Below, piece after piece: positions 3,515 through 41,909 of a stretch of DNA of 48,441 nt (position 1 is the first letter of the stretch; every line of letters starts with the position of its first letter). The translations under genes were made by a program, and so were the position numbers. The stretch is from Verrucomicrobiaceae bacterium. Lineage in GTDB: Bacteria; Pseudomonadota; Gammaproteobacteria; Pseudomonadales; CAMLJR01. The DNA lies in contig JAQGNY010000035.1 in assembly GCA_028293825.1 (NCBI GenBank), positions 1-48,441 on the forward strand. The letters are read 5' to 3'. The notes under the pieces were generated by a model. That model made no database searches and was not told where the DNA came from. It worked only from the letters and a program-made list of their open reading frames with translations.

Positions 3515-4494
3515 GCGACGCATTGATTCAAGTACGCAATTTGCGCAAATATTTTTTGCAGCGCAGTGGATTGTTAAAGCAACACAAAAATTATTTGCAT
3601 GCCGTCGATGGCGTTAGCTTCAATATCGAGCGCGGCGAAACGCTGGGCCTGGTCGGAGAATCCGGCTGCGGTAAATCGACGCTCGGAAAAGCGTTGCTGC
3701 GCTTATATGAACCGGATGAGGGTGAAATTATTTTCGACGGCGCCGACATTCGCACGCTGTCACGTGCGGATATGCGCACTACGCGCCGTCGTATGCAGAT
3801 GGTATTTCAAGATCCGTACGACTCATTGAATGCGCGCCATACGGTTGGAACAATTGTCGAAGAGCCATTGGTTGTGCATAACCTCGGCGGTAATAGCAAC
3901 CAGCGTCGCGAGCAAGTACAACAATTACTGAAACAGGTCGGCCTACCTACCAACAGTATCGATCGCTACCCGCACGAATTTTCCGGCGGACAACGACAGC
4001 GCATCGGTATCGCGCGCGCGATTGCCCTACAGCCAGAATTTATCGTTTGCGATGAGCCGCTTTCGGCACTCGACGTTTCGGTACAGGCGCAGATAATTAA
4101 TTTGCTGCTAGAGCTGCGCGCTTCGATGAATTTATCGCTGCTGTTTATTTCGCATGATCTGTCCGTGGTGCGGCATATTAGCGATCGTGTGGCGGTTATG
4201 TATCTGGGTGAAATTGTCGAGCTGGCACCAGCGGCAACAATTTATAACGAAGCGCGGCATCCTTACACGCAATATTTAATCGCGTCGATTCCTAAACCCG
4301 TGCCCGGTGCGCGTCGTCAACACCATGCGCTGCTAACTGGCGAAGTGCCCAGCCCGATCAATCCACCGAGCGGGTGTCGCTTTCATACGCGCTGCCCCAA
4401 AGCGGAATCAATCTGTAAGGTCGAAAAGCCGGCATTCGATATGATCGCAAACGATGAGCAACATCGAGTCGCGTGTCATTTTGCAGAAAAATAA
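3511..4494 (+). CDS. Oligopeptide-type ABC transporter ATP-binding protein (OppF/DppF-like)
   Basis: Second ATPase of the importer, 327 residues. Walker A is GESGCGKST, the signature is [14 protein letters not shown] and Walker B is [12 protein letters not shown], with the switch histidine in LFISHDLSV. The C-terminal HPY extension contains [15 protein letters not shown], again with the cluster-type cysteines. The ATG overlaps the previous stop by four bases. It is the last gene of the operon: a hairpin follows, and the next genes run toward it from the other strand. Family assignment is strong; the transported substrate is not determined by this sequence. Confidence 0.93.
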
Positions 4495-4533
4495 AAACGA
4501 AAATCGAAAGCGCTGAATGGAAAAAACAGAAGG

Positions 4534-4564
4534 AAGCGGCTGCAACAATTAATTTGCAGCGCTT
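4534..4564. terminator. Probable bidirectional terminator between convergent operons
   Basis: A stem GCTGCAA (4539-4545) pairs with TTGCAGC (4554-4560) around an 8-base loop. An outer AAGC/GCTT pairing extends it past one bulged G. It sits between the ABC operon (+, ends 4494) and the COX IV-like gene (-, ends 4568). On the minus strand a run of six T follows after about eight bases; on the plus strand the tail is only moderately T-rich. Function is inferred from structure and position. Confidence 0.55.
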
Positions 4565-4567
4565 TAA

Positions 4568-4867
4568 TTAAGCTGCGTTAAACCAATACAAACAGACAAT
4601 AGCAATGCAGACGCCCGCACCCCACAACTCGAACAACAAACGCAGCGGTAGCGGCGCGTGCTTTAGCTCCATGAAATTTAAACCCACCAGTCTCACTTTA
4701 AAAAGCGCTACCAGAAACATGAATACCGTCGCCAGTTGCGGCCCTTTCGAATATTGAATGGAGGCTGAGGAATGCCCCAACCACCATGAAAAACCGGTCA
4801 ACAGAACTAAAACCACCCAGACGACCGTAGTGTAACTGCGCAACAATTGGCTCATAACAGCGCTCAT
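4568..4867 (-). CDS. Prokaryotic cytochrome c oxidase subunit IV family protein
   Basis: Small membrane protein of 99 residues with three predicted helices: VVWVVLVLLTGFSWWL near the N-terminus, a middle ATVFMFLVALFKVRLVGLNF segment, and a C-terminal LWGAGVCIAIVCLYW helix. The size and the middle FLVALFKVRLVGLNFMELKHAP stretch match the COX4_pro family (CyoD/NorF-like accessory subunits of haem-copper oxidases). It lies 21 bases downstream of a COX III-like gene in the same direction. No catalytic subunit I or II is present in the window, so whether it serves an oxidase or a NO reductase encoded elsewhere is open. The start is uncertain between ATG 4867 and ATG 4855; neither has a strong ribosome binding site. 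Confidence 0.75.
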   Translation of the reverse strand: MSAVMSQLLRSYTTVVWVVLVLLTGFSWWLGHSSASIQYSKGPQLATVFMFLVALFKVRLVGLNFMELKHAPLPLRLLFELWGAGVCIAIVCLYWFNAA

Positions 4868-4888
4868 TAGTTAGCGAATAGTTAAACG

Positions 4889-5479
4889 TCACTTCATTAA
4901 ATACAGCAGCGGAAATAGAACAATCCACAGCACGTCGACCATGTGCCAATAACTGGCGCCACCTTCCAAAATCGCAAGATCGCTCGGCTTGGAAATACCC
5001 CGCCGCGCGATCACGCAAAGAACAGCCAGCGCTACCATGCCGATCAATACATGAAAAAAATGCAGCCCGGTAAGGATGAAGTAAAACATGTAAAAGTCGT
5101 TGGTGGTCAGCCCTATTCCAGCGTGTATTTTTTCGGAGTATTCGATTACTTTCACCGAAATAAAACCGGCACCGCACAACATTGCCAGCAACAATAATTT
5201 GAACGCCAGCCCATTCAGATTTTTCCGCGCCGCGTTAATACCGAGCACGACCAACCACGAACTGGTCAGCAGAAAAATCGTGTTCAACGCACCGTAATTG
5301 CTATTCAGTGTGGCTTGCGACTGCATAAACAATTCGGGATTCTGCGCGCGATAAAACACGAATACCGAAAAGAACAAACCGAATACCAGCATATCGCCGA
5401 GAACAAAAATCCAGAGACCAAGCTCGCCCGGTATATGCCGAGTGGAAACGGGCTTGGCCTCTATAACCCGTGCATTCAC
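4889..5479 (-). CDS. Cytochrome c oxidase subunit III family protein (NorE-like)
   Basis: Membrane protein of 196 residues with five predicted helices. The N-terminal PGELGLWIFVLGDMLVFGLFF, the central FYMFYFILTGLHFFHVLIGM and the terminal SYWHMVDVLWIVLFPLLYL are hallmark COX III segments, including the conserved E of the GE/GLW region and the LTGLHFFHV motif. The length is that of short CyoC/NorE-type subunits, not of full COX III. The start is a GTG at 5479 that overlaps the TGA of the upstream gene (GTGA); the nearby ATG is out of frame. This implies tight coupling with the unknown membrane protein upstream. NorE-like proteins assist NO reductases, but no norB or norC is visible here. Confidence 0.85.
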   Translation of the reverse strand: MNARVIEAKPVSTRHIPGELGLWIFVLGDMLVFGLFFSVFVFYRAQNPELFMQSQATLNSNYGALNTIFLLTSSWLVVLGINAARKNLNGLAFKLLLLAMLCGAGFISVKVIEYSEKIHAGIGLTTNDFYMFYFILTGLHFFHVLIGMVALAVLCVIARRGISKPSDLAILEGGASYWHMVDVLWIVLFPLLYLMK

Positions 5480-6177
5480 CGCAGTACACCTACATCCGGT
5501 TGGCGTTTAATCGCTTTCAACAAGGTTATGAACATCACGTTGAACCAAATCGCAAACACGACTAGCGGCATCCAAAACGCGAGTAAACCATTCCAGGCAA
5601 ACGGGCCGGTTTTGAAAAACGTCATCAGGCCGGCCGGCAACAATAAAAATGCCACCCAGAAATTTAAATAACCCACCCAACGCGGAAAAATTGGCGGCTG
5701 ATTTTTATCGCCAAGAATGGCAAGACCGATAGCTACGTTTTGAATAACGGCCGGCGAAAAAGTCATCGCAATAATCAACCACGACGCATCGTTCAACAGC
5801 AAAATAAGTTCGGGATTACGCTCGGGTCGAAACGCTGCGGTCGTCCACAACATGGCGGGGATCAAGATAATTGCGATACTCATCGCGCCACCCAGTAACT
5901 GCGTATACGCCAATACCGGTGGGCTGCCTTCGATACGCTGAATTTGGGCGGAAATAACGGCGATAAACGGGGCAAATAAACCGGCACCCGCCACCAATAA
6001 AATCATTCCGACGCGAATGCCATTGGTATTTTGTCGAAATAACTCTGCAATTTCGGCAGCACCGGAACTCGGTAACGGTGGTGGTACAAACTTCGCCAAC
6101 AACCACCAACCGATGGTCACCATAACTCCCATCAACGGTGCGGCCCAAAGACAGATCAACTGTGAACGCTTGTTCAT
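5476..6177 (-). CDS. Unknown six-helix integral membrane protein
   Basis: A 233-residue protein I do not recognise. Six hydrophobic segments are visible, at about residues 7-29, 54-76, 88-110, 127-150, 165-185 and 195-218. The start is ATG 6177, preceded by a strong AAGGAGAG ribosome binding site; a 15-residue upstream extension in the same frame lacks one. The stop overlaps the GTG of the COX III-like gene, so the two are translationally coupled, and it probably acts with that protein in the inner membrane. No cofactor-binding motif is obvious. There are few charged residues in the helices and the loop after helix 1 is proline-rich. It could be an assembly or anchor subunit; no function is claimed. 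Confidence 0.75.
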   Translation of the reverse strand: MNKRSQLICLWAAPLMGVMVTIGWWLLAKFVPPPLPSSGAAEIAELFRQNTNGIRVGMILLVAGAGLFAPFIAVISAQIQRIEGSPPVLAYTQLLGGAMSIAIILIPAMLWTTAAFRPERNPELILLLNDASWLIIAMTFSPAVIQNVAIGLAILGDKNQPPIFPRWVGYLNFWVAFLLLPAGLMTFFKTGPFAWNGLLAFWMPLVVFAIWFNVMFITLLKAIKRQPDVGVLR

Positions 6178-6398
6178 TTCACTCTCCTTATTGTTATTGA
6201 ATCGAATGTATTTGCCGCCCATTGTAATTGAGATAAATAAGCGCGCGACAGCTGTTGTTGGACTGCGGGTAAAACGGTGAGGTAATTGATCAAGCGAATC
6301 GAGCTGATCGCCGTGCTTAATTAATATCTGTTAATAAACTTGATTTAACATCGGTTCAAATCCCAATGCCGAAGTCAGTGGCAACGAAACAGGGAGCA

Positions 6399-6710
6399 TT
6401 ATTTTTTTGGAGTCGACATATAAACAATCAGTGCTGCGTAATCGGTATCGGTGCAGTCGAAACACATTCCCTTCGGCGGCATCGCGTTTATACCGCGTTT
6501 AGCGCTGAGCAATAATTGCTGTGGACCCTTGGCCAGACGCGGCTTCCAATCCGCTTCTACAAACGATCGCGGCGCGCCTGCGGCACCGGACGCATGGCAC
6601 GATATGCAGGAGCGATTGTAATGGTCAATAACGTCTTGATCGGTCGCTGCCGCCGCCATCGACAACAGCATTAATGAAAAACTTAAAACGCCTGCCAATA
6701 CATTTTTCAC
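6399..6710 (-). CDS. Cytochrome c5-type c-type cytochrome, periplasmic or membrane-tethered
   Basis: Small c-type cytochrome. A haem attachment site CISCH lies in a SCISCHASGAAGAPR context, and an INAMPPKGMCFDC segment near the C-terminus holds the likely methionine ligand; this pattern and the two extra C-terminal cysteines are typical of the cytochrome c5/CytC5-like family. The open frame extends to 6854, but that part is basic and not signal-like. A GTG at 6710 (or 6719) gives a proper signal peptide, MKNVLAGVLSFSLMLLSMAAAA, read from the frame. The start is therefore uncertain. The gene lies between the PepSY gene and the six-helix protein, all on the minus strand, and could pass electrons to or from either. 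Function is inferred from family only. Confidence 0.8.
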   Translation of the reverse strand: MKNVLAGVLSFSLMLLSMAAAATDQDVIDHYNRSCISCHASGAAGAPRSFVEADWKPRLAKGPQQLLLSAKRGINAMPPKGMCFDCTDTDYAALIVYMSTPKK

Positions 6711-6831
6711 GAATGTCACCCAACTGTTTGGTTTAACGCGATCGCTCTCAGCGCAATTTACGTTAGCGCTAAAACATGTCGGCGACAATTTTATCACTGA
6801 TCGGCTTTTTCGATGCTTTAGTTGCGCGTGA

Positions 6832-8259
6832 TTATTCGGGAAATGGTGCCGCATTTTTCTCGCAGGTTTTTTTGTAAATCTTCTCAGGAAGACCCAACCA
6901 GCGATTCACGGCGGGAATTTGGCTGAACAAAAACTTTTCCAGTACAAACACTACAGCTACCGAAGCGCCAAACAGCGGTAAATAAATAGCCAGTCCGGCT
7001 ACTACGACAACTAAACCAAAAGAAAAACGTGGCTGCTGTAACGGTATCGGCGCGCCCAATAAACCTGTCGCACGGCGACGCCACCATAGAACGACAGCGC
7101 TGACACTAAGCAGAACTAAACCGAGCGCGGTGAACAAGCCGAGCAATTGATTGAACCAACCGAACAATTGTCCTTCATGCGCTGCGACACCGGTGCCGAT
7201 AATGCGATCGATTAAATGGCGTTGATTGAAATTTTCACGGCGAACTATTTCCCCCGATGCGCCATTGACCAGTAAATCGGCGCGCAATAGTCGATTCTGT
7301 GCATCGGATTTTGCTGCCCATAAATCGGCTGTACTGGTCGACGGACTGATCCGCACCGGCGGCGCAAGCTGAAGCGCACTCACCACCGCGACAACGCGAT
7401 TGATCTGCGCATAATTGGTTGAAAAATTATTTGTCGATTTTTGCATTGCGGAATGATCGTGGCCAACATGCTCCTGCGATGCGCCCTGCTCCAAAGTTTT
7501 TCCGCTGGATTGTTTGTCGGCATTTTCACGCCCCACTGTCCAATCCTGCGCTGCGACCGCAGTACCTGTCAGCGTTCGCAACGCCTTAAAATAACTTCCC
7601 CAAACGTTGGCCCACGGCAAACCACTCAGTAATAACACTAATGCAAAAGCAGAAATCCAAATTCCCGTTACCGCGTGAATATCGCGCCAGAACGTGCGCT
7701 GACCGCGACCTATGCGCGGAAATAACAAACCCGCTAAACCTTGAACCTGGCGCGGCCACCACAAATAAATTCCGCTCACTACCATAACAATCGCCCAGGA
7801 CGCCGCCAACTCGACCAAAATCGATCCGACATTCCCGATTAGCAACTCGCCATGAATCGTGCGCACGACCTGCATAAATCGATCTTCTTCGCGCACTGTT
7901 TTTAATATCTGCAACGTTTGTGGATGCACGTAAACGCGCACCGTCGCACCCTCGCTTTTCACAAAAACCCGCACCGCCGCGTTATCAGCCGGCGGTAATT
8001 CGTAAGCGATAAATTGTGCGCCTGCGACTGCGTTTAACGCGGCTGCTATCTGTGCATCCGCGTCGGCACGATGTGCAATCGGCGTCAAATTATCGAGCGG
8101 CACATCGATCCATGCCTCCACCTGCGGCTTGAATAGATAAATGGCACCACTGATCGACAATAAAATAACAAAAGGAATACAAAATAAACCTGCGTAAAAA
8201 TGCCAGCGCCACACTGCGCGATAATCCGGCCACGATTTTTTTGTGTTTTTATTTTTCAT
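6832..8259 (-). CDS. PepSY-associated transmembrane protein
   Basis: Inner-membrane protein of 475 residues of the PepSY_TM family. The N-terminal WRWHFYAGLFCIPFVILLSI segment with conserved histidine is the family hallmark. Further helices include ASWAIVMVVSGIYLWWPR, WISAFALVLLLSGLPW and LLGLFTALGLVLLSVSAVVLWW, then one more C-terminal pair. The conserved histidine in the VVRTIHGELLIG region is also typical, as is the central periplasmic part with PepSY-like folds. A histidine-rich stretch, EHVGHDHSAMQ, sits between helices 3 and 4 and may bind metal. In other bacteria such proteins sit beside TonB receptors and are proposed to reduce imported ferric or cupric complexes. The TonB receptor ends 39 bases upstream, so the two are probably one operon. 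Confidence 0.88.
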   Translation of the reverse strand: MKNKNTKKSWPDYRAVWRWHFYAGLFCIPFVILLSISGAIYLFKPQVEAWIDVPLDNLTPIAHRADADAQIAAALNAVAGAQFIAYELPPADNAAVRVFVKSEGATVRVYVHPQTLQILKTVREEDRFMQVVRTIHGELLIGNVGSILVELAASWAIVMVVSGIYLWWPRQVQGLAGLLFPRIGRGQRTFWRDIHAVTGIWISAFALVLLLSGLPWANVWGSYFKALRTLTGTAVAAQDWTVGRENADKQSSGKTLEQGASQEHVGHDHSAMQKSTNNFSTNYAQINRVVAVVSALQLAPPVRISPSTSTADLWAAKSDAQNRLLRADLLVNGASGEIVRRENFNQRHLIDRIIGTGVAAHEGQLFGWFNQLLGLFTALGLVLLSVSAVVLWWRRRATGLLGAPIPLQQPRFSFGLVVVVAGLAIYLPLFGASVAVVFVLEKFLFSQIPAVNRWLGLPEKIYKKTCEKNAAPFPE

Positions 8260-8298
8260 AAATAATCTCTGTCAGCGCTATGCGCCGATCATTTCAAC

Positions 8299-10734
8299 TC
8301 AAAATTTCAAGCGGACGCCCGTTGTCAGCGTGCGGGGTTGACCGGCCCAAATCGAGCCGGACGCTGCTTCCAAATTTGCCGATGGATTTTGCAAGCCGGT
8401 CGTCGCGCTGATCGTGTCGGAAATATTCGAAGCCGATGCCACGTAGCGGCGGTTAAACATATTGCGAATCTCGAAGAATAAATGCAGATCGTCGATGACG
8501 CTTCCATTCAACTTGGTATCGTAATGCGCGTTGAAGTTATACAGCGAATAACCCGGAATTTTCAGCAGATTCGCGTTATCCATGTACGCGGCTTCACGAT
8601 AATCCGACTCGATAAAACCGCCGAGCCCTTGCAACAAGCCCGCTTTCTGATCGTAGCCAATACGCAAGTGCAACGTCTGTGGAGCGACGCCGGGAATTTT
8701 ATTGCCCGAGCGATCAAACGCCGTCGATTGCGTACCGGCGCTGAGGCGCTCGCTATATTTGTCGTAGTACTGATCGTTGCGCAAATACGCTGCGGCCAAA
8801 TACGCGTCCGGCAAAAAGTCGGCAAACGGTCGCCAGTGAATTCCTGCCTCAATACCGCGATGTATCGAGCGCGGCGCGTTAAACGTGTACGTTTGCAAAC
8901 TGGCGCCGGGCGATTGCGATACTAATTCATCGCGAAAGCGTTCATAAAATGCCGTCACGCTGGCATTAAAAAATGGCGTGGGCGACCACATTGCACCGAT
9001 ATCCAAACCGGTATTGCGCTGCGGATCGAGCTGCGTGTTATTGCCCGCAACACCGGCCGAGGTCACAAATAAATTGGTGGCCTGCGGTGTACCGTAACCG
9101 GTGGCAACGCGTGCATGTAAACGCCACGATGCAATGGGCTCGAAAATAACGCTGACTTCCGGCGCGACATTGGTGTAATCACGTCGACCGACCACGCTGG
9201 TGGTAGTCGGCGCCGCCGCCGTCGGATAACCGAATGCCATTGAAGTAGCATCGAGCAATGTGCGCTCGACGCCGATACCAGCAACACCACTCCACTGCGC
9301 ATTAAATTGCAATTCTTCGCGCGCCCGCGCGCCGTAGTTAAAATGGCTGCCATTGACGGTTTGCGTCAAACCGCCCTGCACTGCTTTATCACCGGGACCT
9401 TTATTACCGCCCGGCGCGACGTTGTAAGTATTCGAATTAATATTTTCGTAATTCGCGAACACGCCGACAAAATGCGTCGCTTTAAATCCGAGCAATTCAT
9501 CGTCAATCGTGACATCGCTAATAATATTGAACGAGGGAAATGTGCCGACCGAACTACTCGAATTGGTAGGCTGTTTAATATCGCGGTTGTCGAACACAAA
9601 TTGCGTGCGCCACATCGTTTCAGCATCGAACGCATGCTCCCAACGCGCGGCGGCGATAGTGCGACGATCGTGGCGACCGATGCCCGCATCATCGGCACTC
9701 AAGCTAACACGCGGACCATTGAAACCATTCGCGAGCAATGCAACCGGCGCGCAACCGCTGACTGCAATATTGTCGCAACCTTTTTGATAGGGGTTTTGTT
9801 TGTATTGATTTAACGACAATCGCACCGATACGTCGGCATCCATATTGTTGTTTACAAATTTAAACGTGAATTTATCGCTGTCGGTGGGCGTGTACGTCGC
9901 CAATAAATTCACTGTGTCGGTATCGAAACCGCTGTGATTGGTAAAACCGTCACCGGCAACATAACTGGCAAAGGCGCTGTATTCGAAGCTATCGGTTTTT
10001 TTGCCGAGCGTGACGTAGTGATTGCGATAGCCGAAGCGACCAATATCGGTGCCGACTTCCACACCGTTGATATCTGCGCCACGACGCGATTTGAAATTGA
10101 TCATGCCGCCGGTGGCGTAGTTACCGTACAGCGCCGAACCCGGTCCTTGAAACACATCAATGCCGGTGTATACGTGCGGATCAATTAAATCGGTACGCGC
10201 CAAGCCATCGGGCTGCGTCACCGGAAAACTGTCTTCGAAAACCTGCACGTTGCGAACACCGAATGTCTGCCGTGCATTCGAACCGCGTACCGATATCGAC
10301 ACATCGCGCGGACCATTGCCCTGCGCGACGGTCACACCCGGTGTTAGCACCATTAATTCGCCGATCGTAAACGCGCCCGAATTTTTAAATTGCTCGCGAT
10401 CGATGGCGGTTACCGTTTGCCCTTTCGGCTGACTGAAAATCTCGCGGTGTCCGGTAACGAAAACTTCGCTTAACGATAATTCTTCCTGAGCAAGCGATGC
10501 CGATTTTTTATGCAGCAGCGCGGTATCGACTGGTGCAGCCGCCTGCGCATCTAAATCAGCAAGCTGCGCTTTTATTGCATCCATCTGCCGCAATAAATCA
10601 GCGCGCTGTTTTGCAATCACAGCCGCGTCGGCAGCAAAACTCAACGACGAATAAGCGATTAAGACTGCTGCAGCAGTGACCGCCGCAATTAACGAAAGCG
10701 GGAAGTTAATTATCGAAAGAAGGGATTTTTGCAC
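8299..10734 (-). CDS. TonB-dependent outer-membrane receptor
   Basis: Outer-membrane gated channel of 811 residues. The GTG start at 10734 gives a signal peptide ending near LSFAADA. A short coiled-coil-like stretch (AKQRADLLRQMDAIKAQLADLDA) and a possible TonB box (LSLSEVFVTG) follow. The plug domain is clear: IGELMVLTPGVTVAQG, SISVRGSN, and GPGSALYGNYATGGMINF. The barrel runs to the last residues TTGVRLKF with terminal phenylalanine, as expected for BamA-dependent insertion. The neighbouring PepSY protein suggests a metal-complex or siderophore substrate, but no substrate motif can be read. No Fur box was seen upstream. The 86-base gap to the sensor kinase gene could hold its own promoter. 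Confidence 0.92.
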   Translation of the reverse strand: MQKSLLSIINFPLSLIAAVTAAAVLIAYSSLSFAADAAVIAKQRADLLRQMDAIKAQLADLDAQAAAPVDTALLHKKSASLAQEELSLSEVFVTGHREIFSQPKGQTVTAIDREQFKNSGAFTIGELMVLTPGVTVAQGNGPRDVSISVRGSNARQTFGVRNVQVFEDSFPVTQPDGLARTDLIDPHVYTGIDVFQGPGSALYGNYATGGMINFKSRRGADINGVEVGTDIGRFGYRNHYVTLGKKTDSFEYSAFASYVAGDGFTNHSGFDTDTVNLLATYTPTDSDKFTFKFVNNNMDADVSVRLSLNQYKQNPYQKGCDNIAVSGCAPVALLANGFNGPRVSLSADDAGIGRHDRRTIAAARWEHAFDAETMWRTQFVFDNRDIKQPTNSSSSVGTFPSFNIISDVTIDDELLGFKATHFVGVFANYENINSNTYNVAPGGNKGPGDKAVQGGLTQTVNGSHFNYGARAREELQFNAQWSGVAGIGVERTLLDATSMAFGYPTAAAPTTTSVVGRRDYTNVAPEVSVIFEPIASWRLHARVATGYGTPQATNLFVTSAGVAGNNTQLDPQRNTGLDIGAMWSPTPFFNASVTAFYERFRDELVSQSPGASLQTYTFNAPRSIHRGIEAGIHWRPFADFLPDAYLAAAYLRNDQYYDKYSERLSAGTQSTAFDRSGNKIPGVAPQTLHLRIGYDQKAGLLQGLGGFIESDYREAAYMDNANLLKIPGYSLYNFNAHYDTKLNGSVIDDLHLFFEIRNMFNRRYVASASNISDTISATTGLQNPSANLEAASGSIWAGQPRTLTTGVRLKF

Positions 10735-34876: not shown

Positions 34877-35362
34877 CTACGGCGAAAGAAACCGATTCAT
34901 TTCCTCTTCAATGCCATTACGCAGTCCCATCAATTTACGCGCGTAGTCTTCGAGCGCAATGTCTTCCGCCGATTCGGAAGTCCATTCGCGCACCGGTGAA
35001 GGTCTGCCGTCGACATCGACAGCTACGAAAACAATAATGCAGTGCGTCGTTTTGCGCAGTTGATTTTGTTTAGGGTCACCGGCGCTGACATCGACTGCAA
35101 TGTGCATGCTGGTTTTGCCGGTGTAAATGACACGAGCCTGCACTTCGACCAGATGGCCGATAAGAATGGGTTGTATAAAACGAATACCGCCGACATAGAC
35201 AGTTACGCAATACTGACCGCTCCACCCTACCGCGCACGCGTAACCGGCCTGGTCGATCCATTTCATCACCGTGCCGCCGTGCACTTTGCCACCAAAATTA
35301 ACTTCCGAAGGCTCTGCTAAAAACCGCAATGTGATGTCGCGTTGTACTTGCGTGGCGGCCAT
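34877..35362 (-). CDS. Acyl-CoA thioesterase, hotdog fold (YciA/4HBT type)
   Basis: Cytoplasmic thioesterase of about 161 residues that hydrolyses acyl-CoA. The motif VNFGGKVHGGTVMKWIDQAGYACA holds the conserved N22, H28 and catalytic D37 of the YciA/BFIT-type family; it is split here as NFGGKVHGG and MKWIDQAG. The start is ATG 35362, with GAGG nine bases upstream; an in-frame ATG five codons earlier (35377) lacks a site. It is 55 bases downstream of the Ser/Thr kinase gene on the same strand and might be co-transcribed, though no functional link is evident. Chain-length preference cannot be read. Confidence 0.9.
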   Translation of the reverse strand: MAATQVQRDITLRFLAEPSEVNFGGKVHGGTVMKWIDQAGYACAVGWSGQYCVTVYVGGIRFIQPILIGHLVEVQARVIYTGKTSMHIAVDVSAGDPKQNQLRKTTHCIIVFVAVDVDGRPSPVREWTSESAEDIALEDYARKLMGLRNGIEEEMNRFLSP

Positions 35363-35417
35363 TATTTTGATCCTCATGCAGTGAGTTACGGTTTTAAATA
35401 AATAATTATTTCCGAAA

Positions 35418-36929
35418 CTATTGCTGTCTTGTCCATTGCTTCACTTCGTTATCAGCTGCAAACACTGGATACTGCTGCAAGGTGGCGGCGGCTTCCTGCA
35501 AGAGCTGCTGATCGACAACTCCATCTGCGCGCACGGCACGTTGTTTTAAAATCGCCACCACCGCATTGTGAATACGATCAATATCGCGATCGCTTTTCTG
35601 AATGGCATACGCGGCATCCAAATAATACAGCGCGCCATCGATTGCGCCAGCGTTTAACGCATTATCCGCCTCGTTAATTGCGTGATGAAACTGACGCTGC
35701 TCGGCGGCGGGTAAATCGCTCAAACGCGGCGCGGTATTCGAAAATAAATTCCAGTAAATGCCATTGCCAAGCGCCAGCATTATCAACAACACCGTCATGC
35801 CGGCGAGCTTTTTGTAACCGGCTACAGCGAAATCCAAACGGCGCAAAAATTCGGTGGCGTCGAGTGGACGTGCCGGCGCACGCAATTGCACCGAACTGCG
35901 CAACAAACGGCGCAGAAAAAAACCAAGACCTTTCGGCAAAACCGGCAACGTTGACTTGGCTTCAGCTTGAATGGCGGTTGCATCGAGATAGGCATGCGGG
36001 CCGCCAAGCAATTGCAGCGCGATTAACCCCACCGCATAAATATCATCGCGCGGGTCCGCCGCCATTTGCCGAAACATTTCCGCGCTCGCATAACGCGGCG
36101 TCAGCGCATGCAACTTTCCGGTTTCGAACGCGTCGCCGTTTTGATCCTGCGTCACCGCGCGCGCGATACCAAGGTCCAATACTTTTACGTGGTCGTTTTC
36201 GGTAAGAAAAATATTGCTGGGCTTTAAATCGGAATGAACAAAACCGCGACTGTGTGCGTAGGCCAATGCCACGGCGATATCGCGAATAATCGCCAGCGAT
36301 TTTTTGCGGTCGACTTGTTTACCCAGATTATTTTTAATGTATTTATCGAGCGAAATGCCGCGCAGCGCTTCCATCGTCATGTAAACGGTGCTGCCATCGC
36401 GATCGAAATCGTAAACAGTGACAATATTCGGGTGCGCTAACGTTTGTGTTTTGCGGGTCTCGCGCTGCAGCGCGATAAATGCTTCTGGATGTTTGGCGAT
36501 AGCGCCGCTTAGGACTTTAATCGCGATATACGGATCGCTGTCGCGCGCTTCCTTTTTGCGAAGGTCGAGCGCGCGATATACGCAGCCCATACCGCCGCGC
36601 CCTAATACATTATTGAGCACGAAGCGATGCTTGACCGTGCTGCCTAACGCAATGGGTAAATCCGTGTCAGCGTCGGAAAAAGTCAGCGTCAAATCGCCGG
36701 GCTCGAAACTCTCTGGCCCTGTCTTCAGCGAAGAGGTTGAAAGCGACGAGTTAATATCCGATTCAAGCATGGTAATTTGCGTAGCAGACGCAGCGATTTT
36801 ATTATCGGCCGCATTGAAATTATTTTTTTTAAAATCAAACACAGACTTTTCGGAATTCAACGCAGCGTCTTTTTCCACATCGAGAGATGGCGACGAAATA
36901 TCGAACTGGAACGGCTGCTTCTCTTCCAT
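35418..36929 (-). CDS. Transmembrane serine/threonine protein kinase (Hanks type)
   Basis: Kinase of 503 residues. Residues 1-95 are polar and look disordered. The kinase domain covers about 100-370: glycine loop LGRGGMGCVY, ATP lysine K138 (IAIKVL), helix-C E157, catalytic loop HSDLKPSN (D234, K236, N239), metal-binding DLG (D252). The residue before the catalytic aspartate is serine where most kinases have arginine, making it a non-RD kinase. One membrane helix lies at about 375-396 (LAGMTVLLIMLALGNGIYW), so the kinase domain is cytoplasmic and about 105 C-terminal residues, helical in character, face the periplasm. An AGGGAG precedes ATG 36929. It follows the nuclease-like gene by 31 bases. 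Confidence 0.93.
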   Translation of the reverse strand: MEEKQPFQFDISSPSLDVEKDAALNSEKSVFDFKKNNFNAADNKIAASATQITMLESDINSSLSTSSLKTGPESFEPGDLTLTFSDADTDLPIALGSTVKHRFVLNNVLGRGGMGCVYRALDLRKKEARDSDPYIAIKVLSGAIAKHPEAFIALQRETRKTQTLAHPNIVTVYDFDRDGSTVYMTMEALRGISLDKYIKNNLGKQVDRKKSLAIIRDIAVALAYAHSRGFVHSDLKPSNIFLTENDHVKVLDLGIARAVTQDQNGDAFETGKLHALTPRYASAEMFRQMAADPRDDIYAVGLIALQLLGGPHAYLDATAIQAEAKSTLPVLPKGLGFFLRRLLRSSVQLRAPARPLDATEFLRRLDFAVAGYKKLAGMTVLLIMLALGNGIYWNLFSNTAPRLSDLPAAEQRQFHHAINEADNALNAGAIDGALYYLDAAYAIQKSDRDIDRIHNAVVAILKQRAVRADGVVDQQLLQEAAATLQQYPVFAADNEVKQWTRQQ

Positions 36930-36960
36930 GATGACTCCCTAATTTTTAGCGCCGATATTT

Positions 36961-37842
36961 TTAAAAAACATCCACGCCGAGTTCGCGCAACGCGCGCGTT
37001 AAATATTCATCGAGATGCGCGAGATGTTCAGCGCGAACTTCGATGTAATGCCATTGTTGTTTACGGTATAAATCGAGCCGCTCCATCGTTGCGGCAATGG
37101 CGCCGGCGTCGTGCTCATCGCCGCTGACTTCAATATAAACCTGCGCTTGCGGCAACCAAAAATCGGCATGATGTTCCGGCGTTTCCTGCACTAGCGGCAA
37201 GCGGCGATTGCATGCATGCGCAACCCCCGCAAGATACAACCAATGACAAACCAGCCACTCGCTGCGGCTGTGAAAACTGTGACCGTCGAGTGCGCGCAGC
37301 TCAGTTATCGCAGTCAGCAAATCGGCTTCCGGTTGCTCGGCTTCGACATACAGGCGCTGCATATATTCGAACTGCTCGGCCACCAACGAATTTTCCAGCA
37401 AGCTTTCCGGCCAACTGATTTCCGCATCGCCAGCATCGCTTTCAATAATAACGCCACCGACCTGTTCGCCCGCGCGCGTTAAGCGCCAGCCGGAAAAATC
37501 ACGTTGCAATAAGCCAATTTCACCGAGGACACGACGCACTTCGCGCGCGGTAATTTGATATTTGCGTGCAAGCTGCGTGGCGCTGAGCATGCGATTGCTT
37601 TCGATCCCACGCAGCAATTGATGCTCGACGATAATATCCGGCCACACGATGTAGCGGCCGTAACGCCGGCTGTGCACGTATTCGCCGCCTTCGAATTCAC
37701 CCTTGGCAGTGAGCACCCAACCATCTTCCACTTTGCGAATCCAACCGCAGTCGCGCAGCGTTGCGAATAATTGTTGCAACGGAATATCGAGCAATTTCGC
37801 CAACGCGGAAGTCGATAGTTTTTGCTGCTCCGTTGTACTCAT
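36961..37842 (-). CDS. Unknown protein: duplicated DNA-binding-like module plus nuclease-like C-terminus
   Basis: A 293-residue protein with no name I can give. Residues 9-74 and 86-152 are two copies of one module: LS..LA.......I then G(W/L) then GW.LT..GE..GG and finally I.WP; each looks like a small winged-helix unit. Residues about 185-290 resemble a PD-(D/E)XK-type nuclease: SRSEWLVCHWLYLAGV (E195), then HADFWLPQAQVYIEVSG (D227, E238), then YRKQQWHYIEVRAEHL. The usual lysine after the glutamate is replaced (EVS), although lysine 261 could take its place. It starts one base after the dUTPase stop, so both are in one operon. Cellular role unknown. Confidence 0.8.
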   Translation of the reverse strand: MSTTEQQKLSTSALAKLLDIPLQQLFATLRDCGWIRKVEDGWVLTAKGEFEGGEYVHSRRYGRYIVWPDIIVEHQLLRGIESNRMLSATQLARKYQITAREVRRVLGEIGLLQRDFSGWRLTRAGEQVGGVIIESDAGDAEISWPESLLENSLVAEQFEYMQRLYVEAEQPEADLLTAITELRALDGHSFHSRSEWLVCHWLYLAGVAHACNRRLPLVQETPEHHADFWLPQAQVYIEVSGDEHDAGAIAATMERLDLYRKQQWHYIEVRAEHLAHLDEYLTRALRELGVDVF

Positions 37843-37843
37843 C

Positions 37844-38467
37844 TCAGGCGATCACTGTTTGATAGCGCGCGCTTAATGCTTGATAAAGATTTTCTGCAAA
37901 ACTTTCATCGCTGCTATTTTGCTCGCGCAACAATTCCATCAAATGCTCGTTATCTTCGCGACCGTGCCACTGCTTTTGATAAGAGCCATCTTTGTAGCCG
38001 TGATCCTGCCGAAAAAAATTCAATACATTTTTGCCGACGTAGTGCCGGTACAACTCATCGAAATCGAGTTCAACCGCGCGCAATAAATCCCAAAACAGCG
38101 GCACTGAAAATTGTTTGGTATTTAATGCGAAAGCGGCGAGCGCTTCGGTCGCGGTGCGTACATCTTGGTTGTTGTATTGGTGCGCATCGATTGCTGCGGC
38201 CACTTCATCGGCAATAACTTCGATTGATTTATTTTCGATAAACAATGCACTCAAACCGAAGTGCCAAATGTCGATTGCCTCAAGACGCACTTGCCCTATA
38301 TCCGGCGTTTGTTTTTTCCACCATTTGTAGCCGTAGTGTTCCATCAACTCACCGCATTCGATCCAAATGGCGCGAAACCATTCATACCGCTGATCGATCC
38401 ACTGCGGATGAACTTTGGTGTTCATCCGGTCTTGCAGCGTGAGCATGGTGATAAGAGCTTGTTTCAT
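37844..38467 (-). CDS. Dimeric-type dUTP diphosphatase (dUTPase_2 family)
   Basis: All-alpha dUTPase of 207 residues related to MazG, which hydrolyses dUTP to dUMP and keeps uracil out of DNA. The metal-binding motifs are intact: EC.E (E37, E40) in WIECGELMEHYGYKWW, and E..D (E63, D66) in LEAIDIWHFG. A downstream FDELYRHYVGKNVLNFFRQDHGYKDG segment completes the family pattern. Most gammaproteobacteria rely on the trimeric Dut enzyme; whether this genome also has that one cannot be seen. It is first in the minus-strand run with the nuclease-like protein, Ser/Thr kinase and thioesterase. The 127-base gap upstream holds the edd terminator and probably its promoter. Confidence 0.9.
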   Translation of the reverse strand: MKQALITMLTLQDRMNTKVHPQWIDQRYEWFRAIWIECGELMEHYGYKWWKKQTPDIGQVRLEAIDIWHFGLSALFIENKSIEVIADEVAAAIDAHQYNNQDVRTATEALAAFALNTKQFSVPLFWDLLRAVELDFDELYRHYVGKNVLNFFRQDHGYKDGSYQKQWHGREDNEHLMELLREQNSSDESFAENLYQALSARYQTVIA

Positions 38468-38594: not shown

Positions 38595-40427
38595 TTAGTC
38601 GGTTAAAAGATCTGTGAACAATGTAGCGCCAGCCGATGCCGAAGAAACCATGCGGCGAAAATTACCGAATAAAATACGGCCGGTGTCCAATGCGTCGCTG
38701 GCGGGAATATGCAGCGCGGGCAAGCGCTGCGCCAACTCGGCAGCGTCGACCAGCACGTTGAATTCACCGGCGACGGCATCGATACGAATAAGGTCGCCAT
38801 CACAGATCCGCGCGAGCACGCCGCCATCGAGCGCTTCCGGTGTTAGATGAATTGCTGCCGGTACTTTTCCCGATGCGCCGGACATGCGGCCGTCGGTGAG
38901 CAGCGCGACCTTGTAACCTTTATCGAGCAACACACCGAGCGATGGCGTCAATTTGTGCAGCTCAGGCATGCCATTGGCGCGCGGACCTTGAAAGCGCAGC
39001 ACCGCAATAAAATCGCGATCGAGCGCGCCGGTTTGAAATGCGTCGAGGAATTGCTCTTGGCTGTCGAATACCAAAGCGGGCTGTTCAATCTTCCAATGCT
39101 CCGGCTTTACCGCGGAGGTTTTGATAACCGCCTCGCCCAAATTGCCGTGCAGTACTTTAATGCCGCTGGTCGGCTGAAACGGATTGGCGACCGCGCGTAA
39201 CACCGAATTATCACCGCTACTTAGGGCCGATTCGCGCCACTGCAATTTTCCGTCGGCGCAAATCGCCTGTTGCGAGTACGACGCCAAATCGCCGACGGGT
39301 GCCATCGTCAACACATCGCCATGCAACAAACCGGCGCCGAGTAATTCGCGCACCAAAAATTGAATGCCGCCCGCCGCTGCAAATTGATTTACGTCGGCGC
39401 TGCCGTTCGGATAAACGCGGGCAAGTAGCGGCACCACGTCGGCCAAGTCGGAAAAGTCCGACCAATTAATACGAATGCCTGCCGCCGCCGCAATCGCGAC
39501 CAAATGAATCGTGAGGTTGGTCGAGCCGCCCGTTGCGAGCAAAGCGACGATGCCGTTGACGATGGATTTTTCATCCACCACTTTTCCAATCGGCCGGTAA
39601 TCGTTGTGCAATTTCGTGCGTGCGGCAATTTCATAAGCAGCCGCATCGGTGTAAGCCGCGCGCAATTCCGTATCGGGATTGACGAACGATGAGCCAGGCA
39701 ATTGCAATCCCATGACCTCAATGACGAGCTGATTGCTATTCGCCGTGCCATAAAACGTGCATGTGCCAGGGCTGTGATACGACTCCATTTCCGCCGCGAG
39801 CAATTCGCCGCGACCGATTTTGTTCTCCGCATACTCCTGACGGACGCGTGCTTTTTCTGCATTGGGCAGGCCGGAAGGCATCGGTCCGGCCGGTACAAAC
39901 AACATCGGCAAATGCCCGAATGACAACGCACCGATCAATAAGCCGGGAACAATTTTGTCGCAAATACCAAGCAATAAAACCCCATCAAAGACATCGTGCG
40001 ATAGCGCAACGGCAGTCGATAAGGCGATCACATCGCGGCTGAATAATCCCACTTCCATACCGACGCGACCTTGCGTCACGCCATCGCACATGGCCGGCAC
40101 GCCGCCGGCGACTTGCGCGGTGGCGTGTACTTGCGCAAGCGCTTTTTTTAGAGCTGCAGGGTAACTCGCGTACGGTACGTGCGCGGACAACATATCGTTG
40201 TACGCGGTGACGATGGCGATATGCGGTTGCACGGAATGGGTGACGGCGCTTTTTTCCGCACCGGCGCAACCAGCCACAACATGCGCGAGGTTGCCGCAGC
40301 TAATCGCGCCGCGTGAATTATCGCGTTGCGCACTCTGTTCGATACGATCGAGATAACGCCGGCGACTGTCGCGACTGCGTTCGATAATGCGTTCAGTTAC
40401 GGCTGCAACCCGTTCATGAACATTCAT
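38595..40427 (-). CDS. edd: Phosphogluconate dehydratase
   Basis: Entner-Doudoroff enzyme that turns 6-phosphogluconate into 2-keto-3-deoxy-6-phosphogluconate; 610 residues, the usual length. The IlvD/Edd family is shown by [31 protein letters not shown] and [11 protein letters not shown], the latter two with cysteines that bind the iron-sulfur cluster. The [29 protein letters not shown] region and a C-terminal [17 protein letters not shown] are also typical. GAGGAG precedes ATG 40427. It follows zwf by 39 bases in one operon. The next pathway gene, eda, is not in the window. Confidence 0.96.
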
Positions 40428-40466: not shown

Positions 40467-41909
40467 TCAATACGCCAGCCATTCGCGATCTTCCATGTGC
40501 AATAACGTGTCGGCCTTGGTCGGACCGGTACTGCCCGCCGGATAAGGCGCGACCGCGAAACCGGAACGGCCCCATAAATCCCGCACCGAATCGATCCAGC
40601 GCCACGATGTTTCGATCTCATCCTCGCGCACGAATAAAGTTTGGTCGCCGCGCAATGCAGCGGCAAGTAACCGTTCGTACGCCGTGTAGCCGCGCGCGAC
40701 TTTGCGTCGATCAAGATGTAAATCGAGTGATGTCGTTTCCAACTCAAGCTGTTCGCTCATCCGCGATTTGGTGGCGATGGTGAGGCGAATCCATTCCTCC
40801 GGTTGCAGCTTGATCATCAATCGATTGGGAATTGGCGGCAGATCATTGCCGCGCGAAAACATGGAATGCAGGATCGGTTTAAATTGCACGGTGATGGTGG
40901 CGGTGGCTTCGCGCATGCGCTTGCCGGTACGCAAATAAAACGGCACGCCCGACCAGCGTTGATTTTGTACATAGGTGCGAATCGCAACGAAGGTTTCAGC
41001 GCGGCCATCCGGCACTTCATCGCGATAACCCGGCACTTGCTCGCCGCTGATAAAACCTTCGCTGTATTGACCCGCGACGATGCGCGTTGGCTCATGCTGT
41101 TCCGGTCGCGCCAGGGCGCGTAATACTTTTACTTTTTCATCGCGGATATCTTCGGCGGCCAAACTGAACGGATGCTCCATCGCCACGAATGCAAGCATTT
41201 GCAGCATATGGTTTTGCACCATATCGCGCAGTGCACCGGTCTCTTCATAAAAAGAGCCACGACTTTCTACACCGATCGTTTCCGTCACGGCAATTTGCAC
41301 GTGATCAATACAGGTCGAATTCCATAAATGATCGAGAAAAAAATTACCAAAACGTAGCGCCAGCAAATTCTGAACAGTTTCTTTGCCGAGGTAATGATCG
41401 ATGCGATAAATACGGCGCTCTTCGAATGCTTTCAACATGGCCGCATTTATCGCGCGACCTGACTTCAAATCGGAACCGAGTGGCTTCTCGACAATCAATC
41501 GCGATTCGCCCGATGACAAGTCATAAGCCGCGAGCTTTTCAGTAATGGGGACAAATAAGGACGGTGGTGTTGCCACATAAAATAATCGAAGTCGCGAGGA
41601 TTCCTCCGCGAGCCTATCGCGTAACGGACCCCAACCCTCATCGGAAGTGATATCGCAATCGACTGAAAAAACGCAGGCAAGAAATTGATCCAGCATTACT
41701 GCATCGGTGGCATTACTACTCGCGCGCAACGCATCGCCAACACGGCTGCGAAATGTATCGTCACTTTCGCGTCGTCTCGATACCGAAATGATGCGATCGC
41801 CAGCAGTAAATTCGCCGTTACGAAACAGGCCCCACAGCGCTGGATACAACTTGCGAAAGGCAAGATCGCCGGACCCACCAAACAAGACAAAATCCCGTTG
41901 CTGATTCAT
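40467..41909 (-). CDS. zwf: Glucose-6-phosphate 1-dehydrogenase
   Basis: Oxidises glucose 6-phosphate with NADP or NAD to 6-phosphogluconolactone; 480 residues. The coenzyme site is FGGSGDLAFRKLYPAL, the substrate-binding and catalytic part is IDHYLGKETVQNLLALRFGN, and the structural VQNHMLQMLAFVAME stretch follows. It feeds the Entner-Doudoroff dehydratase gene 39 bases downstream; pgl and eda are not seen. The ATG 41909 has no strong ribosome binding site. The 107-base gap to recX upstream shows no clear HexR box, so its regulation is not readable. Confidence 0.96.
   Translation of the reverse strand: MNQQRDFVLFGGSGDLAFRKLYPALWGLFRNGEFTAGDRIISVSRRRESDDTFRSRVGDALRASSNATDAVMLDQFLACVFSVDCDITSDEGWGPLRDRLAEESSRLRLFYVATPPSLFVPITEKLAAYDLSSGESRLIVEKPLGSDLKSGRAINAAMLKAFEERRIYRIDHYLGKETVQNLLALRFGNFFLDHLWNSTCIDHVQIAVTETIGVESRGSFYEETGALRDMVQNHMLQMLAFVAMEHPFSLAAEDIRDEKVKVLRALARPEQHEPTRIVAGQYSEGFISGEQVPGYRDEVPDGRAETFVAIRTYVQNQRWSGVPFYLRTGKRMREATATITVQFKPILHSMFSRGNDLPPIPNRLMIKLQPEEWIRLTIATKSRMSEQLELETTSLDLHLDRRKVARGYTAYERLLAAALRGDQTLFVREDEIETSWRWIDSVRDLWGRSGFAVAPYPAGSTGPTKADTLLHMEDREWLAY

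Follow-up and report, generated by a model that had tools for sequence, protein, structure and literature searches.

Vsr, the very-short-patch repair endonuclease, is grouped with the catalytic domain of I-Bth0305I and the DUF559/DUF2726 type among the Vsr/EDxHD endonucleases. The DNA-binding repressor Stl is linked to phage dUTPases and belongs to the control of mobile islands in Staphylococcus. In mycobacteria, according to the available part of PMC13309787, a dUTPase binds the helicase-nuclease AdnAB and modestly raises its nuclease activity. The PDC families of PADLOC were proposed through guilt by embedding and most of them await validation (available part of PMC12988326); therefore, the label PDC-S69 is used below as a lead and not as functional evidence. 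Here, positions 1 to 48,441 of contig JAQGNY010000035.1 of a Verrucomicrobiaceae bacterium (assembly GCA_028293825.1, placed by GTDB in the Pseudomonadales), referred to as the window, were analysed. On its reverse strand, a gene for a dimeric dUTPase (37844-38467) is followed after a single base by a gene for a protein with two winged-helix modules and a domain of predicted Vsr/PD-(D/E)XK fold (36961-37842), called the nuclease-like protein. With high confidence, the conserved unit is this pair, with the only dUTPase of known type and a usual core site, and not the trio that is formed with the kinase gene next to it. A two-gene genome-maintenance operon, rather than a three-gene defence island, is the explanation favoured here, to which about an even chance is given.

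The locus resembles the mycobacterial case in that a dUTPase has a nuclease that processes DNA as its partner. There the partners are a trimeric dUTPase and a helicase-nuclease, and their contact was demonstrated experimentally (PMC13309787, available part); here the dUTPase is of the dimeric type and the linkage is genomic only. The Stl system is similar in linking a dUTPase to a DNA-binding repressor. With the Vsr/EDxHD endonucleases the C-terminal fold is common (Z 8.7 for Vsr and 10.3 for I-Bth0305I), but the nuclease-like protein adds two N-terminal winged-helix modules, varies at the Lys position and has no significant sequence similarity in the PDB (best E 0.43). PDC-S69 is matched over its full length, and here the match is chromosomal, at a conserved site beside a housekeeping dUTPase and with no defence-system embedding seen. 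In the one open-access library searched, no publication was found that describes an operon of a dUTPase and an endonuclease in Halieaceae or Spongiibacter, or a split between dimeric and trimeric dUTPases in the Pseudomonadales.

The dUTPase of the window (207 aa) is of the dimeric type, as had been proposed in a preliminary description of this DNA, and belongs to the all-alpha family. It matched PF08761 at 1.5e-28 with 100.6 bits against a gathering score of 22.9, and its nearest solved structure was 1w2y (4.7e-27), which we take to be from Campylobacter jejuni. The metal-binding motif of dimeric dUTPases consists of EXXE and EXXD, and E37, E40, E63 and D66 of the window protein align with the same residues of 1w2y; the C-terminal GYKDGSY...EDN block is kept as well. 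The window protein differs from 1w2y in being shorter (207 versus 229 aa) and in having a partner gene, and it lies far under the cut-off of the NF049964 dUTPaseEpsil model (114.6 versus 300 bits). No trimeric Dut was found in the window's genome at E 1e-12 or better. The dCTP deaminases and the trimeric dUTPase have the same fold, and the one weak PF00692 match in this genome (20.7 bits) was read as a dCTP deaminase, which may have some dUTPase activity. Judged by these searches, the window dUTPase is the only one of the two known types in its genome and most likely the cell's housekeeping enzyme.

The gene neighbourhood was compared at 80 named loci, which are the most similar 80 of 177 related stretches, so that the counts on them lean towards close kin and the sample of 312 genomes described below is the fairer one. 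At least 1.5 kb was available upstream in 70 and downstream in 77 of these loci, and 5 kb on both sides in 51; their hosts are Spongiibacteraceae, Halieaceae, Oceanicoccus, Dasania and relatives. The two genes are inherited as a pair across numerous marine gammaproteobacteria. A dimeric dUTPase gene stands directly upstream of the nuclease-like gene on the same strand in 62 of the 80 loci, with gaps of −44 to +33 bases in 60 of the 62 and of 103 and 250 bases in the other two (start codons chosen by script). Downstream and on the opposite strand, 63 of the 80 loci carry trmA (PF05958), either directly next to the nuclease-like gene (29 loci) or with a Pterin_4a (phhB-type) gene in between (34 loci, three of them at 1.5-5 kb). 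Since this arrangement with Pterin_4a occurs in 34 of the 63 loci, the same-genus locus included, the gene was assigned to the old site. Beyond trmA, 42 of the 80 loci carry a trpD2-like gene, 44-54 carry genes of the DsrC, DsrH and DsrE types, and 54 carry a Bax1-I (yccA-type) gene; by their position, the Dsr types are presumably tusE, tusB, tusC and tusD. Neither a kinase relative (with 5 kb or more on both flanks in the 51 loci mentioned) nor a thioesterase match was found near the pair in any of the 80 loci.

Some loci deviate from this layout. In two genomes of one family (G004 and G047), a gene of the metallo-beta-lactamase fold (L137 3641-4297; L138 4382-5029) separates the dUTPase and nuclease-like genes, and the pair with the inserted gene is still beside trmA. 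Three loci of Spongiibacteraceae and of the relative Litorivivens (L063, L058 and L059) have the nuclease-like gene and no dUTPase in 6 kb upstream; L063 retains trmA and the tus-type genes.

The distribution of both dUTPase types was determined in 312 genomes of the order that are at least 90% complete. Dimeric dUTPase was found in 133 and trimeric dUTPase in 172 of them, neither type in 7 and both in none. The same held for 56 relatives, with 33 dimeric, 21 trimeric (all at E 4.1e-29 or better), none with both types and two with neither, the latter being incomplete genomes; frames of about 190-320 aa that matched PF00692 with about 20-33 bits were assigned to the dCTP deaminases and left out of the trimeric count. 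As no genome carried both types, the window dUTPase was taken as the sole one of the known types. After removal of 14 of 83 matched genomes, whose matches were only partial or confined to a domain and scored less than about 190 bits, the nuclease-like gene was present in 69 of the 312 genomes, namely in 58 of 133 with dimeric dUTPase, 8 of 172 with trimeric dUTPase and 3 of 7 with neither (dimeric versus trimeric, Fisher p 5.5e-17, computed ignoring relatedness). Where dimeric dUTPase and the nuclease-like gene occur together (58 genomes), the latter lies at most 150 bases downstream of the dUTPase gene in 37, at 269-1037 bases in 6 and apart from it in 15; in 13 of these 15 the genes are on different contigs, so that in draft assemblies they could still adjoin. 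With 43 of the 58 genomes having both genes at a distance of about 1 kb or less, and with 62 of the 80 loci, the association of dUTPase and nuclease-like gene exceeds chance, whereas that with the kinase (0 of 80) does not. In the class sample, full-length matches were obtained in 4 of 369 other genomes, all four from other orders. The order is thus cleanly divided between two unrelated dUTPases, and the partner gene is enriched among the genomes with one of them. This makes the idea that dUTPases have protein partners, beyond their work on the nucleotide pool, directly testable in new organisms.

The nuclease-like protein (293 aa) matched PDC-S69 from residue 6 to 292 (profile 3-288 of 289, 296.7 bits, 5.2e-89), and the only Pfam family above its cut-off was the phage antirepressor domain KilAC/ANT (2.3e-07). 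In order to predict its fold, an AlphaFold2 model was built from 65 aligned sequences, which comprise the window protein, 55 of the 80 named loci and 9 of 15 full-length sequences from relatives (predicted local distance difference test, pLDDT, 91.9). The model consists of helix-helix-hairpin-helix-strand-strand modules at about residues 8-82 and 88-150, a long helix, and an alpha-beta-beta-beta-alpha-beta-alpha domain from residue 193 to 287. A duplicated module had been postulated before and proved real in the profile comparison of residues 6-82 (37597-37827) with residues 83-152 (37387-37596), which gave a probability of 99.2% and an E-value of 6.8e-20 over 69 columns; as controls, the two modules reached probabilities of 0.3% and 0.2% against the C-terminal domain. 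To judge from these profiles, the two winged-helix modules, each with its beta-hairpin, are homologous. Their fold has a weak likeness to RacA (Z 5.7) and SoxR (Z 4.8), which is possibly just a common arrangement.

The C-terminal domain (residues 189-291, 36970-37278) aligned with the catalytic domain of I-Bth0305I (3r3p, Z 10.3, 91 of 97 residues, root-mean-square deviation 2.5), an endonuclease-like protein of Neisseria (Z 9.3), Vsr (1cw0, Z 8.7) and TnsA (Z 8.1), and its viral fold matches include DUF559 and DUF2726 phage proteins. Sequence searches of the PDB returned no significant relative of the nuclease-like protein, and Foldseek against the PDB returned nothing at E below 0.001; the fold call therefore rests on the Foldseek probability, the viral-library matches and a second aligner. 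As modelled, the domain has a Vsr/PD-(D/E)XK core fold, with E195, D227, E238 and R255 as candidate active-site residues. Residue 227 is D in 63 of the 65 aligned sequences, and residue 238 is acidic throughout, with E in 34 of them and D in the other 31. The acidic pair of the putative active site thus appears to be kept and its basic residue to be loose. Additionally, Trp240, which is near-invariant (62 of 65), is replaced by Ser in the window protein and in one other sequence (residues 238-241, 37120-37131), so that the window copy may be functionally drifting. Several genomes of the order and class samples also contain open frames of about 760-1150 aa in which only the C-terminal domain is matched.

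The pair of the window lies outside the usual trmA site. Its present place is marked by two genes on the same strand, an edd-type dehydratase gene (38595-40427; PF00920 1.4e-92 and PF24877) 127 bases upstream of the dUTPase gene and the glucose-6-phosphate dehydrogenase gene zwf (40467-41909; PF02781 2.5e-104). The trmA gene of this genome is on another contig (C40; old site at L150, G000:C40:60000-76000, 3954-9501), with the Pterin_4a, galE-like, trpD2 and tus-type genes intact around it and the pair absent. Beyond Pterin_4a, where the pair would be, C40 encodes a protein of 1325 residues that contains PKD and carboxypeptidase-regulatory-like domains. In the sole same-genus genome, the pair is followed by Pterin_4a and then by trmA. 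Trees were calculated from 33 rows, i.e. 32 of the 80 loci and the window; in these, both window proteins cluster with their counterparts at the same-genus locus L050, the nuclease-like protein with a support of 100/99 and the dUTPase with 87/87, which is below the threshold at which branches were starred. As the trmA site is intact without the pair in this genome, both genes seem to have moved together. That the pair left the trmA site as a whole in the window's lineage and landed beside zwf and edd is well supported by parsimony; a transfer from an unsampled close relative may be an alternative to this joint move.

Elsewhere the pair appears to be mostly vertically inherited. Mantel tests on 52 loci with all four genes (L085 was dropped) related the distances of the nuclease-like protein to those of trmA with r 0.88, of the dUTPase with r 0.80 and of yccA with r 0.74, compared with 0.75 for trmA versus yccA; none of 300 permutations was as high in any comparison. 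Relatives of the nuclease-like protein were found neither in 50,697 phage records nor in a scan of viral contigs with a single peptide pattern. In 72,556 plasmid records there were 15 matches, 7 of which cover at least 80% of the query, and 5 of these 7 are Vibrio replicons of 1.7-2.1 Mb.

Inheritance that is nearly vertical, at one fixed site, speaks for genome maintenance rather than for defence of the island type. In the mechanism proposed here, the dUTPase, as the only one of known type in the cell, would hold dUTP low and thereby keep uracil out of DNA, while its partner would bind duplex DNA through the two winged-helix copies and present the Vsr-like (PD-(D/E)XK) endonuclease domain in order to nick or trim a uracil- or replication-related lesion or mismatch; the nick would be directed by the lesion or by DNA structure. 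The partner would be made together with the dUTPase and would perhaps be held by it, a physical link for which the mycobacterial contact with AdnAB is a precedent. The kinase and a thioesterase gene further downstream would be passengers at the place where the pair landed after leaving the ancestral trmA site. The data show the pair, its usual site, the mutual exclusion of the two dUTPase types and, as a prediction, the fold; a common transcript, DNA binding, nuclease activity, the substrate and any contact between the two proteins are inferred. The nuclease-like gene stays beside the sole dUTPase gene, nearly overlaps it and apparently moves with it, and it therefore most likely serves the same physiology, namely uracil-free and undamaged DNA. 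Repair as the mechanism of the nuclease-like protein is put forward tentatively, at slightly below even probability. A role as a stand-in for missing uracil repair was rejected, since uracil-DNA glycosylase was found in 55 of 56 genomes.

Several observations weigh against the maintenance operon. The glycosylase count means that no absent repair enzyme is replaced, and the nuclease-like protein matches a model of a phage-defence candidate. A neighbouring dUTPase is lacking at 18 of the 80 loci, of which two (L080 and L123) have just 541 and 611 bases upstream and twelve (Amphritea, Pontibacterium and kin) use another shared site beside a glutathione S-transferase gene. One genome (G009) has the dUTPase, Pterin_4a and trmA with only a remnant of the nuclease-like gene of about 55 residues with a stop. 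The gene is dispensable, being absent from 75 of the 133 genomes with dimeric dUTPase, and it also occurs in 8 genomes with trimeric and 3 without any dUTPase; moreover, the contrast of 58 of 133 versus 8 of 172 is inflated by phylogenetic relatedness. The two gene trees differ, with 12 of 30 inner dUTPase branches open and L122, for example, placed differently. As to the fold, two mitoribosomal chains score equally in the structural comparison (Z 10.2 and 9.4), so that it occurs also where no cutting is expected. At the putative active site, K, R and N occupy position 255 in 33, 26 and 6 of the 65 sequences, respectively, and position 195 is E in just 20.

The alternative that survives best, although it is considered unlikely, is a chromosomal anti-phage nuclease which cuts invading DNA, with the dUTPase keeping host DNA uracil-free as the distinction or with the dNTP pool as the trigger. 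The defence idea stays alive because of the full-length PDC-S69 match, which was likewise obtained for all 8 relatives tested. It also fits that the C-terminal domain shows kinship with the HEAT_CxxC_PDDEXK model and, in relatives, with PDC-S68, that a UvrD-type helicase gene precedes one relative on a plasmid of Methylotuvimicrobium (L148 3982-6942), that another relative is encoded on a plasmid of Nostoc next to a protein matching PDC-S02, and that a dUTPase domain is among unvalidated DefensePredictor predictions (PMC13092281, available part). However, the clade of the window shows one main site and near-vertical inheritance, phage records and viral contigs yielded no relative in the searches given above, the PDC families are themselves proposals, and no publication naming PDC-S69 was found in the open-access library searched. 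The variable location and horizontal spread of an island were not observed, yet there are the relatives on two plasmids of other groups. Embedding in defence systems was not seen either: among the neighbours that could be identified, those in the window (zwf, edd) and at most of the 80 loci have housekeeping roles, the flanks being without a gene-by-gene PADLOC scan. The earlier suggestion of genome protection is therefore kept in part, with protection plausible for a conserved, mostly vertically inherited and apparently jointly moved pair. Its trio falls under the refuting condition that had been named with it, as no kinase relative appeared in the DNA available around the 80 loci. A defence-island reading finds no support, given the trmA/DsrE/DsrH/DsrC site in most of the 80 relatives and the correlation with trmA. 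PADLOC matches to PDC-S69 in Halieaceae, Spongiibacteraceae and relatives may accordingly not be defence genes, and this family of defence candidates gains a concrete, testable partner and a housekeeping context.

Somewhat less probable still is a DNA-binding regulator or architectural factor, in which the nuclease fold would be a DNA- or protein-binding scaffold and which would control dut or other genes. The two winged-helix modules, the KilAC/ANT match and the weak likeness to RacA and SoxR are consistent with it. The uneven active site suggests that catalysis may be lost, as the Lys position holds Arg or Asn in 32 of 65 sequences and the window copy is also without Trp240. The expected metal ligands are nevertheless kept, with D227 in 63 and an acid at position 238 in all 65 sequences, and no shared dyad operator was detected upstream of dut with a crude script, for which the best dyad (4 of 60) equalled that of the trmA control (also 4 of 60).

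A guard function for the sole dUTPase is improbable. In this reading, the dUTPase would bind or balance the nuclease-like protein in healthy cells; once the dUTPase cannot cope or is inhibited, for example because of a phage or of nucleotide stress, the nuclease-like protein would be freed or sent to uracil-rich DNA. If true, a housekeeping enzyme would be wired to a DNA-cutting effector, with maintenance and defence in one operon.

A single defence-like unit of all three genes, in which the membrane kinase would act as the sensor, is very improbable. In its favour are the gaps of 1 and 31 bases between the window genes and the many matching PADLOC kinase models (best PD-T4-6, 3.3e-53); against it stand the 0 of 80 loci with a kinase relative near the pair, a same-genus genome (89% complete) with the pair and no kinase match, the confinement of all 25 PADLOC matches listed to kinase residues 93-394, and the best kinase relatives (G017, G024 and G040), which lie near a Sel1-caspase gene instead in 3 of 3 cases. 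The kinase is a local neighbour outside the conserved unit.

Along the reverse strand of the window, edd is followed after 127 bases by the dUTPase gene, after 1 base by the nuclease-like gene, after 31 bases by the kinase gene (35418-36929) and after 40 bases by a thioesterase gene (34877-35377). The order and the spacing of 1 and 31 bases reported in the preliminary description agree with these coordinates, and its run of three genes is present as stated; the thioesterase gene, a fourth member which had been overlooked, occupies the lower end of the described span. It encodes a 4HBT/YciA-like acyl-CoA thioesterase of the hotdog type with 166 aa (PF03061 3.4e-17; NF007970 9.6e-17, below the cut-off of that model). 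From the gene spacing, a single transcript for the run is plausible. Scans for signals were uninformative, with 3 promoter-like sites in the window versus 5.4 in shuffled sequences and 19 terminator-like sites versus 8.5, including one in the edd-dut interval at 38547-38526. Neither an Rfam family nor a tRNA was detected by scanning the window.

The kinase (503 aa) matched PF00069 at 6.6e-36. Hanks-type kinases are recognized by a catalytic Lys, the Asp and Asn of the catalytic loop and a DxG motif, and the corresponding residues K138, D234, N239 and D252 are present. Its description as a membrane protein is upheld by one helix predicted from hydropathy at about residues 375-393. The PADLOC matches listed therefore span the kinase domain and the membrane helix, with none in the C-terminal part. 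The closest kinase relatives, those of the three genomes named above, are 40-42% identical over most of the kinase and do not cover roughly its first 90 residues. Near all three relatives (L134 6136-7821, L135 410-2077 and L136 2313-3983), a gene with Sel1 repeats and a caspase domain was found, and kinase and caspase may together form a separate system. Next to the kinase of the window no caspase gene was noticed, the other genes of the window being without a dedicated search.

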